42,084 nucleotides of DNA from contig CANRHU010000027.1 in NCBI GenBank assembly GCA_947630485.1, forward strand, positions 1-42,084, written 5' to 3'. Positions 8,661 through 33,714 of this stretch are shown piece after piece. Below the pieces are notes generated by a model. The model saw nothing but the letters and a program-made list of their open reading frames with translations, searched no databases and was not told the origin of the DNA. The stretch comes from an uncultured Lachnospiraceae bacterium. Lineage in GTDB: Bacteria; Bacillota; Clostridia; Lachnospirales; Lachnospiraceae. Each line of letters starts with the position of its first letter. Position 1 is the first letter of the stretch. A program made the position numbers and the translations under genes.

Positions 8661-8800
8661 TTTTTTCTCACCTTTCTTTTCGGTTTCGCGCAGAATCCTT
8701 CCGGTTCTGCGCATTTGTCTGCAGTTGCAATTACAAAGCGCGCGCCCGTAAGAGTTCGTCCGTCTTCCTTCCATCCCCATCATACCACAGATTCAGCGAT

Positions 8801-8844
8801 AAAAAAAGACTCTTACTGCAGCCATAAAGGCTTCAGTAAAAGTC
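8801..8844 (-). terminator. Intrinsic terminator / attenuator in hflK leader
   Basis: On the minus strand two 16-base arms (8829-8844 and 8808-8823, two mismatches) enclose a 5-base loop and are followed by seven T residues. Its 5' arm overlaps the 3' side of the closing stem of the riboswitch-like element (8836-8842), so only one of the two structures can form: a transcription-attenuation layout. Confidence 0.85.
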
Positions 8845-8929
8845 TTGCGGTCTCTCAAGCAGATGCGGATAAATAGTTATCGTCCTGACGTCGTCTGCTC
8901 ACCGTCTCCGGTGTGCTACTCCCTCTTAC
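8836..8929 (-). ncRNA. yybP-ykoY (manganese) riboswitch candidate upstream of hflK
   Basis: On the minus strand the closing stem GTAAGAG (8923-8929) pairs completely with CTTTTAC (8836-8842, one G-U). Inside, the 5' side continues GGGAGTAGC-like and the 3' side ends GCAAGAC: the two conserved strands that form the metal site of the yybP-ykoY family. Between them are a short hairpin (CACCG-gaga-CGGTG) and a second arm AGCAGA/TCTGCT holding an internal GATAA/TTATC hairpin. Length (94 nt) is normal. Known members sense Mn2+ and switch a terminator or ribosome site. A strong promoter precedes it and a competing terminator follows. Identification is by eye; a covariance-model search was not possible. 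Confidence 0.72.
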
Positions 8930-8938
8930 GTTGTAAGT

Positions 8939-8967
8939 ACTATAACACATGCCGGCACATTTGTCAA
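8939..8967 (-). promoter_or_regulatory. Sigma-A promoter of the hflK leader
   Basis: Minus-strand -35 TTGACA (8962-8967, perfect), 17-bp spacer, -10 TATAGT (8939-8944). Transcription would start near 8932, just before the riboswitch-like stem. It lies 20 bp downstream of the SDR gene stop. Confidence 0.88.
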
Positions 8968-31587: not shown

Positions 31588-33714
31588 TTATCTCTTATAA
31601 TACCTCGCCGCCTCATCAAACCGGTCCCGCAGCTGGTACTGGTTGTCCAGGCGCATCACGCTGCCGGTCCGGCCGGCCACGAAACGCTCCAATTTCTCCA
31701 TATATTCGTCAGGGGTAATGCTGCCTTCCGCCACATAGGTCAGTCCCTTTTCCCAGCTGGCCGTCAGATCCGGGTTCAGAAGCTGCCGGATTGAGGCGGC
31801 GACCACCTCATAGACCAGCTCGCCCAGAAGCGTGGGCGTAATGACCTGGGTCTTATTGTTCAGCATCAGATATTTAATGTTCACCAGTTTCTTTAAGATC
31901 TCCGCGCGGGTGGCGCTCGTGCCGATACCGCTGCCCTTGATCTGGGCGCGCAGCTCCTCGTCCTCGATCAGCTGGCCGGCATTCTCCATGGCCAGGATCA
32001 TGGAACCGGAGGTATAGCGCTTGGGCGGCGAGGTCTCGCCTTCCTTGATGACGAGACCGAAGACGGACACTTCCATGCCCTTTTTCAGGGACGCCAGCAT
32101 CTTTAGGAATTCCGGGTTCTCCAGCTCGCGGCGGTTGCGCTCGGAATCGTCAGAGTCAGCTGCCGTGCCGCCTTTCCTGGCCTCTTCACTGCCTGTCTGT
32201 GAACTGCCGAAACTGTCTGCCGCCTCGTCCTCCCGCCCGGTCTTCTTCCTGCCGTCTGACACATCGGCAACCTTCAGATACCCCGGCTCCGCCAGCACCT
32301 TAAAACTTGCGAAGAAATGCTCCCCCAGCCGCACAAGCTCCAGCGACGTCTTCTGATAGACCGCTGCCGGATAGAAAATGCTCAAGAACCGCCTGGCGAT
32401 CACCTCATAGACCTTAAGCGCCAGCGGCTTTAAGCCGCGCAGCGCCCCGAAACCCTGGCCGGTCGGAACGATGGCGTAGTGGTCGGTAATCTGCTTGTCA
32501 TTTACATAGCGGGTTTTCGCGATCTTCTTATAGCTTCCGTCCTGCAGGATCTCTTCCGCGAACGCCTTAAGCGGCTCGAACTGGCGCAGGCCGCCGATAT
32601 TCTTGTGGATCTCCTTTGCCACCGCCGTGGACAGAACCCTGGCGTCCGTTCTCGGATAGGTGACCAGCTTCTTCTCATAGAGCTCCTGCACGATCTGCAG
32701 GGTCTGGTCCGGGCTGATCTTGAACATCTTCGAGCAGTCGTTCTGCAGCTCCGCCAGGTTGTAGAGAAGCGGCGGATTCTTCGTCTCTTTTTTGCGCTCG
32801 ACGGATGCAACCGCGGCAGCCGCCCCGTCTTCTGTCAGATACGCGATCAGTTCTTCCGCGGTTTTTCGCTCTTTGAACCCATTTTCTTTATACAAAAACG
32901 GCGTGCCGTAATATTTCGACCCTTCCACACACCGCCATTCCGCGTCAAATACGAACAAAGCGTCACTGGCCGCTTTCTCCTTACCAGCGGCCGAACCGGC
33001 CGCCGTCCTGCCGAAGGTTCCGATCACCCGGAAAAACGGCGTCTTCGCAAACTCCCGGATCTCCCGCTCCCGGCGCACCACCATGCCGAGCACACAGGTC
33101 ATGACGCGCCCAACGCTGACCACGGCGCGATCCTGTTTCAGAAAGTTTGAGACTGTATTTCCGTACTTCAGCGTCAAAACCCGTGAGAAATTGATGCCCA
33201 TCAGATAATCTTCCTTGGCACGCAAATAGGCGGAGGCGGACAGATTGTCGTACTCTGTCCAGTCCTTCGCCTCACGGATTCCCCGCAGGATTTCCTCCTC
33301 CGTCTGGGAATCGATCCAGACACGTTTCCGCGTCTTCCCTTTCACTCCGGCCATCTGATCCACCAGGCGGTAGATATACTCTCCCTCCCGCCCGGAGTCG
33401 GTGCAGATGTAGATCACGTCCACATCCGGCCGGTTTAGAAGGCCGCTGACAATGTGAAACTGCTTCGCCACACTGTCAATGACCTGGTATTTGAATTCTT
33501 TCGGCAGAAAAGGCAGCGTCTGGAGACTCCAGCGCTTATACTTTGGGTCATAGGCCTCCGGATAGCTCATGGTCACCAGATGGCCTACGCACCACGTCAC
33601 AATGGCGTCGTCCGCCTCCTGATAACCGTCTGCCCGGCGCCAATTCTTCTTAAGCGCCGCGGCAAACTGCTGGGCCACGCTGGGCTTTTCCGCGATAAAC
33701 AATGATTTTGCCAT
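31588..33714 (-). CDS. topB: DNA topoisomerase III
   Basis: A 708-residue type IA topoisomerase that unlinks DNA strands. The Toprim domain runs from KSLFIAEKPSVAQQFAAAL to DSGREGEYIYRLVDQ (acidic metal site near residue 107); the nucleophile is Tyr353 in VTYPRTDARVLS; the ATRAEILKKL block near residue 610 completes the core. No C-terminal zinc fingers, as usual for TopB. A hydrophilic stretch of about 45 residues (Ser/Glu/Asp/Arg-rich, near residue 495) and a shorter one near 240 look like insertions. It lies 40 bp downstream of galM, probably on its transcript, and is followed by a terminator. The start is preceded by GGAG at a slightly long distance. Confidence 0.95.
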   Translation of the reverse strand: MAKSLFIAEKPSVAQQFAAALKKNWRRADGYQEADDAIVTWCVGHLVTMSYPEAYDPKYKRWSLQTLPFLPKEFKYQVIDSVAKQFHIVSGLLNRPDVDVIYICTDSGREGEYIYRLVDQMAGVKGKTRKRVWIDSQTEEEILRGIREAKDWTEYDNLSASAYLRAKEDYLMGINFSRVLTLKYGNTVSNFLKQDRAVVSVGRVMTCVLGMVVRREREIREFAKTPFFRVIGTFGRTAAGSAAGKEKAASDALFVFDAEWRCVEGSKYYGTPFLYKENGFKERKTAEELIAYLTEDGAAAAVASVERKKETKNPPLLYNLAELQNDCSKMFKISPDQTLQIVQELYEKKLVTYPRTDARVLSTAVAKEIHKNIGGLRQFEPLKAFAEEILQDGSYKKIAKTRYVNDKQITDHYAIVPTGQGFGALRGLKPLALKVYEVIARRFLSIFYPAAVYQKTSLELVRLGEHFFASFKVLAEPGYLKVADVSDGRKKTGREDEAADSFGSSQTGSEEARKGGTAADSDDSERNRRELENPEFLKMLASLKKGMEVSVFGLVIKEGETSPPKRYTSGSMILAMENAGQLIEDEELRAQIKGSGIGTSATRAEILKKLVNIKYLMLNNKTQVITPTLLGELVYEVVAASIRQLLNPDLTASWEKGLTYVAEGSITPDEYMEKLERFVAGRTGSVMRLDNQYQLRDRFDEAARYYKR

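Follow-up and report, generated by a model that had tools for sequence, protein, structure and literature searches.

Among the closest described systems is the yybP-ykoY-type manganese riboswitch of L. lactis yoaB, which precedes a P-type ATPase gene (PMC11477304; statements on published systems here and below follow the available excerpts of the papers cited). In this RNA, Mn2+ is held by the phosphates of G9, U39, C40, U44 and C45 and by N7 of A41 (PMC9190785, PMC6754395), in a fold that includes P4 and a four-way junction (PMC9190785, PMC6754395, PMC11087558). Mn2+ stabilises P1.1 and blocks a terminator that needs the 3' segment of P1.1 (PMC11087558). The ON direction is given for the Mn riboswitch in PMC9190785 and PMC11087558, and one review names Mn riboswitches OFF switches (PMC11477304). 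The same review describes a Mn riboswitch of C. difficile before a P-type ATPase related to the one of L. lactis. In E. coli K-12, the leaders of alx and mntP are both reported to be Mn-responsive riboswitches (PMC9603457). Some yybP-associated genes do not fit Mn2+ (PMC7266159).

The locus described here belongs to an uncultured Lachnospiraceae bacterium and was analysed within a stretch of 42,084 nucleotides (GenBank assembly GCA_947630485.1, contig CANRHU010000027.1), hereafter the window. A first-pass annotation, made from the letters alone, had proposed a manganese-type riboswitch with an attenuator in front of an hflK-hflC operon, and the parts that it named could be located on the minus strand. 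The promoter consists of a −35 box TTGACA (8967-8962), a 17-nt spacer and a −10 box TATAGT (8944-8939), with 11 of 12 matches over 8967-8939; by reading, six close relatives (L002, L003, L005, L007, L010, L020) share TTGACA in this position. Nine bases separate it from an aptamer-like element of exactly 94 nt (8929-8836), of yybP-ykoY type by its R1 and R2 model scores (see below), which runs from GTAAGAG (8929-8923) to CTTTTAC (8842-8836). These ends form P1.1, the 7-bp closing stem GUAAGAG/CUUUUAC, in which all pairs are formed, one of them G-U. The conserved strands of the annotation, GGGAGTAGC at 8923-8915 and GCAAGAC at 8848-8842, were likewise in place.

Within the element, the 5' strand of L1 is GGAGUA (8922-8917), with the equivalents of G9 at 8921 and of A10 at 8920 (contacts in PMC9190785, PMC6754395), and its 3' strand is AAGA (8846-8843). 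P1.2 is formed by GC at 8916-8915 with 8848-8847; these pairs were checked in the window, and the helix shows covariation as described below. Then follow the P2 hairpin CACCG-GAGA-CGGUG (8913-8900) and the P3 arm (8899-8858), made up of P3.1 (8899-8894 with 8863-8858 and 8890-8889 with 8867-8866) and P3.2 (8881-8877 with 8872-8868). The L3 bulge UCAGGAC (8888-8882) carries at 8886 the equivalent of A41, the N7 ligand of Mn2+ in L. lactis (PMC6754395, PMC9190785). In the window element, P3 is followed by the L1 3' strand with no P4 hairpin intervening.

An intrinsic terminator (8844-8801) follows, with arms at 8844-8829 and 8823-8808 and a U tract at 8807-8801. Its fold (8846-8801) reaches −23.8 kcal/mol, with a z of −7.5 and 0 of 200 shuffles equally stable. 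The overlap of closing stem and terminator that had been claimed proved to be complete: the whole P1.1 3' strand (8842-8836) sits inside the 5' arm of the terminator, so that P1.1 and the terminator are mutually exclusive. The terminator ends about 140 nt upstream of hflK (8660-7599, minus strand; TIGR01933 234.6 bits, cut-off 159.4), which is, as annotated, the first gene of the operon. It is followed by a 110-aa ORF (7585-7253), membrane-protein-like by reading and matching PF14256 (YwiC) only below the cut-off, and by hflC (7221-6352; TIGR01932 158.1 bits, cut-off 134.4). ATG 8660 was taken as the hflK start because the protein then begins like those of its relatives; a further in-frame ATG lies upstream at 8783. 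Between the terminator and the start codon, a 10-bp hairpin (GCGCAGAA...TTCTGCGC) at 8688-8712 is possibly a second control point of hflK.

Compared with yoaB, whose L3 is UCAAUUC, the loop of the window is likewise 7 nt long and agrees in U, C, A and the final C (PMC9190785, PMC6754395), and in both leaders the P1.1 strand is common to an intrinsic terminator (PMC11087558). The main differences are the P4 and four-way junction of yoaB, both lacking in the window, and the target, hflK instead of a P-type ATPase. In the case of E. coli alx, L1 GGGGAGUAACU and L3 CGUCAUUACGAU...AUCCGG match the window's GGGAGUAGC and CGUCAGGACGAU...AUCCG strand by strand, and the metal-binding loop UCAUUAC belongs to the same type as the window's UCAGGAC. 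In alx, however, P3 and the L1 3' strand are further apart, and the sequence separating them holds a hairpin that reads as P4; the window has no such hairpin and, as a further difference, its element ends in a P1.1-overlapping terminator. P4 is seemingly not required, because four loci found with the Rfam Manganese model RF00080 before MntP genes (L125, L130, L131, L135) have by reading no evident P4, as in the window. By sequence comparison, the window has the features expected of a yybP-ykoY element in L1 (GGGAGUAG on the 5' side, with GCAAGAC or GCGAGAC expected on the 3' side), in L3 (the invariant adenosine corresponding to A41, preceded by C), in the helices P1.1, P1.2, P2 and P3 around both loops and, as regards layout only, in an expression platform that works through P1.1. 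What it lacks is the P4/four-way junction of the solved structures and a score over the RF00080 gathering threshold.

The annotation had suggested a search with the yybP-ykoY covariance model, and the outcome of this search was negative. RF00080 gave no match in the window at its gathering threshold, none at E≤10 on 351 and 146 bases around the element, and none at E≤0.001 across the genome. Permissive thresholds brought up unrelated microRNA, snoRNA, sRNA and intron families from Rfam (E 0.095-9.4), which were rejected as chance. In 37 genomes with matches to our own model R1, RF00080 at E≤10 returned 26 rows, one of them on an R1 element among the matches listed (G285 C24, 11.9 bits, E 1.1). 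This test is a weak one, as seen in the E. coli K-12 controls: mntP reached 41.6 bits against a gathering score of 45, and alx was unreported at E≤1, so that neither passes. The shortfall of the Rfam 15 Manganese model concerns the E. coli K-12 loci L303 1462-1558 and L304 2374-2466. Among 246 sampled genomes of the order, searched with stricter filters, RF00080 found 29 loci (L111-L139) in 25 genomes, both lower bounds; none was over the cut-off and none lay in the window's own family. Since alx goes unreported, and mntP and all 29 loci of the order stay below the threshold, the failure of RF00080 is no evidence against membership. In the genomes sampled, the element family is overlooked by the Rfam model.

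Public genomes yielded 287 confirmed places with hflK relatives, the best 80 of which were kept. R1 is a covariance model of 13 other hflK leaders (alignment A2), chosen by a text pattern that required GGGAGTAG and CAAGAC; L3, P2 and P3 lay outside this pattern, and one P1.2 pair (G-C) lay inside it. A2 was taken from 29 distinct leader strings, with omission of the window's clade (seven), L040, L042, L092, L094, L103 and L109, as well as L056 (one base from L052) and L080 (two overlapping readings). It replaced a first alignment A1 (21 leaders), in which P2 of the window's clade was misplaced. With the window and its near relatives outside the training set, R1 scored the window at 59.6 bits (E 3e-12). 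At E≤1 it matched 33 of the best 80 of the 287 hflK loci, and 31 at E≤5e-7, where 13 were training leaders, 6 identical or near-identical to these and 12 neither. The conservation looked for in related hflK leaders holds for these 31 of 80 loci, whose records name Hungatella, Lacrimispora, Blautia and further Lachnospiraceae. A confident element was absent from 49 of the 80 loci (five of the 80 have less than 400 nt upstream), and among the 80 those of Acetatifactor, Anaerocolumna and Lachnoclostridium phytofermentans had no R1 element. Two weak matches, L037 (E 0.31; ~2673-2770) and L038 (E 0.025; ~2666-2764), are degenerate hflK leaders which by reading have lost the GGGAGUA strand and kept the terminator, L038 also L3.

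Trained on hflK leaders, R1 also found all 29 RF00080 loci, which belong to other families of the order, at the same sites (E 6e-13 to 0.019). It detected elements in at least 117 of 348 sampled genomes of the family and in at least 68 of 341 sampled genomes of the class, 7 of the latter being from the window's family. These counts are lower bounds because surveys of more than 40 genomes used stricter filters, the same as in the RF00080 search of the order, and no more than 11 candidates were scored in any genome. On E. coli, R1 placed alx second (14.5 bits, E 0.031) behind a site inside the alx coding sequence, and gave mntP 7.4 bits, so that R1 alone could not tell alx from chance. A second model, R2, was built from 99 matches (alignment A3) that include the window and two RF00080 loci, three rows being duplicates. 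R2 scored the window, part of its training set, at 62.1 bits; in two E. coli stretches totalling 7 kb its best site was alx (20.2 bits, E 0.0019), followed by mntP (17.7 bits, E 0.0081), and it found 28 of the 28 RF00080 loci supplied at E≤5.1e-5, one of which (L122) was in training. Altogether, the proposed yybP-ykoY match stands as a family resemblance, carried by the R1 and R2 searches from the family side and by covariation, with RF00080 silent at the site itself.

Two further elements of the survey are worth recording. The window's genome holds a second one, L141 (G000:C81:277-388, plus strand), before a Na/Ca exchanger gene (PF01699); it scores 33.3 bits (E 4e-4) with R2 and E 0.07 with R1 and, unlike the window element, seems by reading to carry a P4 hairpin. 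In G889, two elements lie about 1.1 kb apart on one strand (C83:31086-31185 and 32238-32334), the upstream one before a Na/Ca exchanger gene.

As regards the structure, thermodynamic folding of the 94 nt alone was unexceptional (z −1.5; 14 of 200 shuffles equally stable), and the drawn aptamer (−19.1 kcal/mol) is not the energy minimum, computed at −22.3 kcal/mol. The structure is thus supported by covariation and not by energy. Standard pairs fill 89.5% of the cells in A3, compared to 69.7% with partners shuffled and 37.8-48.8% with strands slid; changes on both sides occur in 22 of 27 pairs, and the covariation score is 0.506 versus 0.169. A3 was fitted to the structure of the model, which favours these pairing figures. 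P1.2, whose pairs are not in the model, is a more independent test of covariation. It is paired in 91% of cells, with both-side changes in 46 cells versus 15.8 in shuffles, and one of its pairs shows 22 changes from G-C to A-U in A3; these A-U cases are the more telling because the training pattern held G-C for one P1.2 pair. Two of the five measures for P1.2 were unremarkable against the shuffles (pairs with both-side changes, 97/500; further pair types, 178/500).

The metal-binding loops were examined in the same alignment. GGGAGUA is present in 99 of 99 rows, and the columns of the G9/A10 strand of L1 are invariant in all 99; both figures are selection-biased, the invariance being partly built in because the training pattern demanded these strands. 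In L3, the first base is U in 92/99 rows, the second C in 99/99, the A41-equivalent third base A in 98/99 and the last C in 97/99. L3 differs in length between targets: it has 6 nt in 14 of 18 leaders of a gene for a 145-aa protein and in 3 of 3 YccF leaders, 7-8 nt in all 37 P-type ATPase leaders, and 7 nt in 11 of 13 hflK leaders. This may reflect a different ion in the 6-nt branch, or merely common descent. The L3 of the RF00080 loci is of UCAACA type in 24 of 29 and of CGUCANNNC type, that of the window, in 5 of 29; the latter (L112, L120, L121, L122, L126) all stand before Na/Ca exchanger genes.

The annotation had treated the hflK leader as a singular case. The leader is real, and hflK is one target of a larger family. 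Leaders were assembled from 128 listed places of the family survey and 9 added by hand (the window; the hflK loci L041, L072, L092, L103 and L106; the RF00080 loci L122 and L131; L141), 137 in all, with L159 of the same genus omitted. First ORFs of at least 60 aa were sorted into target classes by BLAST linkage; names are from Pfam/NCBIfam scans of representatives, the others by reading. Among the 128 listed places, the first gene encodes a P-type ATPase in 46, the 145-aa protein in 25, HflK in 10, a Na/Ca-type exchanger in 10, a protein like the beta subunit of Na+-translocating decarboxylases in 9, a flotillin-like protein in 4, YccF in 4, CNNM/CorC in 3 and an unnamed pair in 2; 14 are singletons, and in 1 the contig ends before any ORF. 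HflK rises to 11 with L164, in which a short first ORF precedes hflK and which is counted among the singletons; the 16 hflK leaders among the 137 include 6 hand-added ones, the survey's own share being these 10 or 11. Ion transporters account for 71 of the 128 places, including three singletons (Na/Pi cotransporter, K+ transporter, citrate-type transporter).

The representative P-type ATPase is best matched by the PMR1 (calcium) type, as a fragment below the cut-off of the PMR1 model. For the 145-aa protein, the one representative scanned had no Pfam or NCBIfam match, and YccF is the next ORF in 18 of its 25 loci (L151, L189, L252 and 22 others). Stand-alone decarboxylase beta-subunit-like genes (L208, L150, L272 and others; PF03977 in L208 and L272) recur, in the class survey too; this may be a sign that these proteins deal with divalent ions. 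Pfam scans of genes after RF00080 loci gave, among those scanned, GDT1/UPF0016 in 3, MntP in 4, P-type ATPases in 2 and Na/Ca exchangers in 5. P-type ATPases and Na/Ca-type exchangers are thus common to both sets, and this overlap favours a common ligand. It leaves the ligand unsettled, because among RF00080 loci exchanger genes follow elements with the L3 type of the window, and the remaining genes follow UCAACA elements. The dedicated Mn exporters MntP and GDT1/UPF0016 are absent from the first genes of the 128 listed places and occur at RF00080 loci only.

The overlap of P1 strand and terminator recurs in the family. With G-U pairs and one mismatch permitted, 126 of 137 leaders have a terminator arm that uses the P1 strand, contains 12 or more pairs and has T after it; the controls gave 5 of 680 for random positions downstream and 4 of 685 for shuffled leaders. 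With 8 pairs, the counts were 132/137, 47/680 and 64/685. Because this recurrent layout is that of L. lactis, excess metal should switch hflKC on.

In our reading, with a probability of roughly 70%, the hflK leader is a compact, P4-less transcriptional ON riboswitch of the yybP-ykoY type, most likely for Mn2+, that is wired to hflKC for FtsH and membrane-protein quality control. Counting against it are the target, as hflK is not a metal-homeostasis gene, the missing P4, the 49 of the best 80 hflK loci with no confident element, and the occurrence of dedicated Mn exporters at RF00080 loci only. A plain terminator leader with a chance resemblance to the aptamer is hardly credible: the silence of RF00080 and the unremarkable folding energy of the 94 nt would fit it, and it is contradicted by the covariation of the A3 pairs and of P1.2 and by an R1 E of 3e-12 for a window outside the training set. 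Decay of the aptamer is improbable too. In that case the element would be a yybP-ykoY relic and the terminator a constitutive attenuator, with metal irrelevant at hflK, as could be read from L037 and L038, where by reading the terminator has outlived the GGGAGUA strand, and from the 49 of the best 80 of 287 hflK loci with no confident element; the window, however, keeps both metal-binding strands intact, as 31 of these 80 loci keep an element at E≤5e-7.

The alternative that deserves most attention, though we regard it as unlikely, retains the architecture and the ON mechanism and supposes a change of ligand to Ca2+, another divalent ion or a pH-dependent metal signal, in the subfamily as such or in its branches at hflK and 145-aa/YccF. 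The targets speak for it, with ATPases nearest to the PMR1 calcium type, Na/Ca exchangers, Na+-pump beta-subunit-like and CNNM/CorC proteins among them. The variation of L3 length with the target gene points the same way, as does the restriction of the window's L3 type, among RF00080 loci, to exchanger genes (5 of 29). In addition, a review regards yybP variants switched to other ions as likely (PMC7266159), and alx is responsive to alkaline pH as well (PMC9603457). On the other hand, the adenosine with the Mn2+ nitrogen ligand is kept in 98 of 99 rows, the window's L3 has the length of those in L. lactis and alx, alx is Mn2+-responsive with the same L3 type (PMC9603457), and P-type ATPases and Na/Ca-type exchangers are found after RF00080 elements also. 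A bolder version, quite unlikely in our view, is that yybP-ykoY elements of compact, three-armed form make up a subfamily in Lachnospiraceae and other Clostridia which has partly changed its ion (e.g. to Ca2+, or in the 6-nt L3 branch) and commands a membrane-integrity regulon of HflKC, flotillin and the 145-aa protein with YccF, in addition to cation pumps.

Under the preferred reading of a Mn2+-responsive ON switch, the compact form would consist of three arms and not a four-way junction, with P1.1, L1, P1.2, P2 and P3 with L3, and no P4. Metal bound between L1 (GGAGUA/AAGA) and L3 (UCAGGAC) would hold P1.1 together; the terminator, deprived of the 3' strand that it needs, could not form, and hflK, the 110-aa ORF and hflC would be transcribed. 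In the absence of metal, the terminator would form. Metal excess would then lead to HflK-HflC being made alongside metal exporters, by which FtsH and membrane-protein quality control would be adjusted. TIGR01933 labels HflK a modulator of FtsH activity, and the window's genome encodes FtsH (3 homologues over cut-off). In B. subtilis, MgtE is degraded by FtsH when Mg2+ is low and Mn2+ or Zn2+ is high (PMC7231995), and cells lacking two TerC proteins, one of them controlled by a Mn riboswitch, cannot do without FtsH (PMC10550928). These two observations make it plausible that an RNA connects metal directly to a partner of FtsH; we infer this purpose, like the ligand and the ON direction.

The riboswitch kind is known; its variant and its target set are new. 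The literature search found no paper joining yybP-ykoY with hflK or with Lachnospiraceae and, by title, nothing among the papers listed that links manganese or a riboswitch with hflK (hflC); papers on yybP-ykoY variants in Clostridia and on flotillin with riboswitch or yybP gave context only. The founding experimental papers (Dambach 2015, Price 2015, Martin 2019) lay outside this search, and an earlier mention is possible.

For the biology of these bacteria, the finding suggests that, besides metal pumps, genes for the housekeeping of membrane proteins may be turned on by an excess of metal. Other elements of the family precede flotillin-like genes and the operon of the 145-aa protein and YccF. 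The family also supplies members for the question of yybP variants that sense other ions (PMC7266159). If the ligand is Mn2+, gut Clostridia would have a large Mn2+-controlled gene set that annotation with the Rfam model now in use does not see, and the Mn2+ response would extend to FtsH-linked quality control of the membrane.
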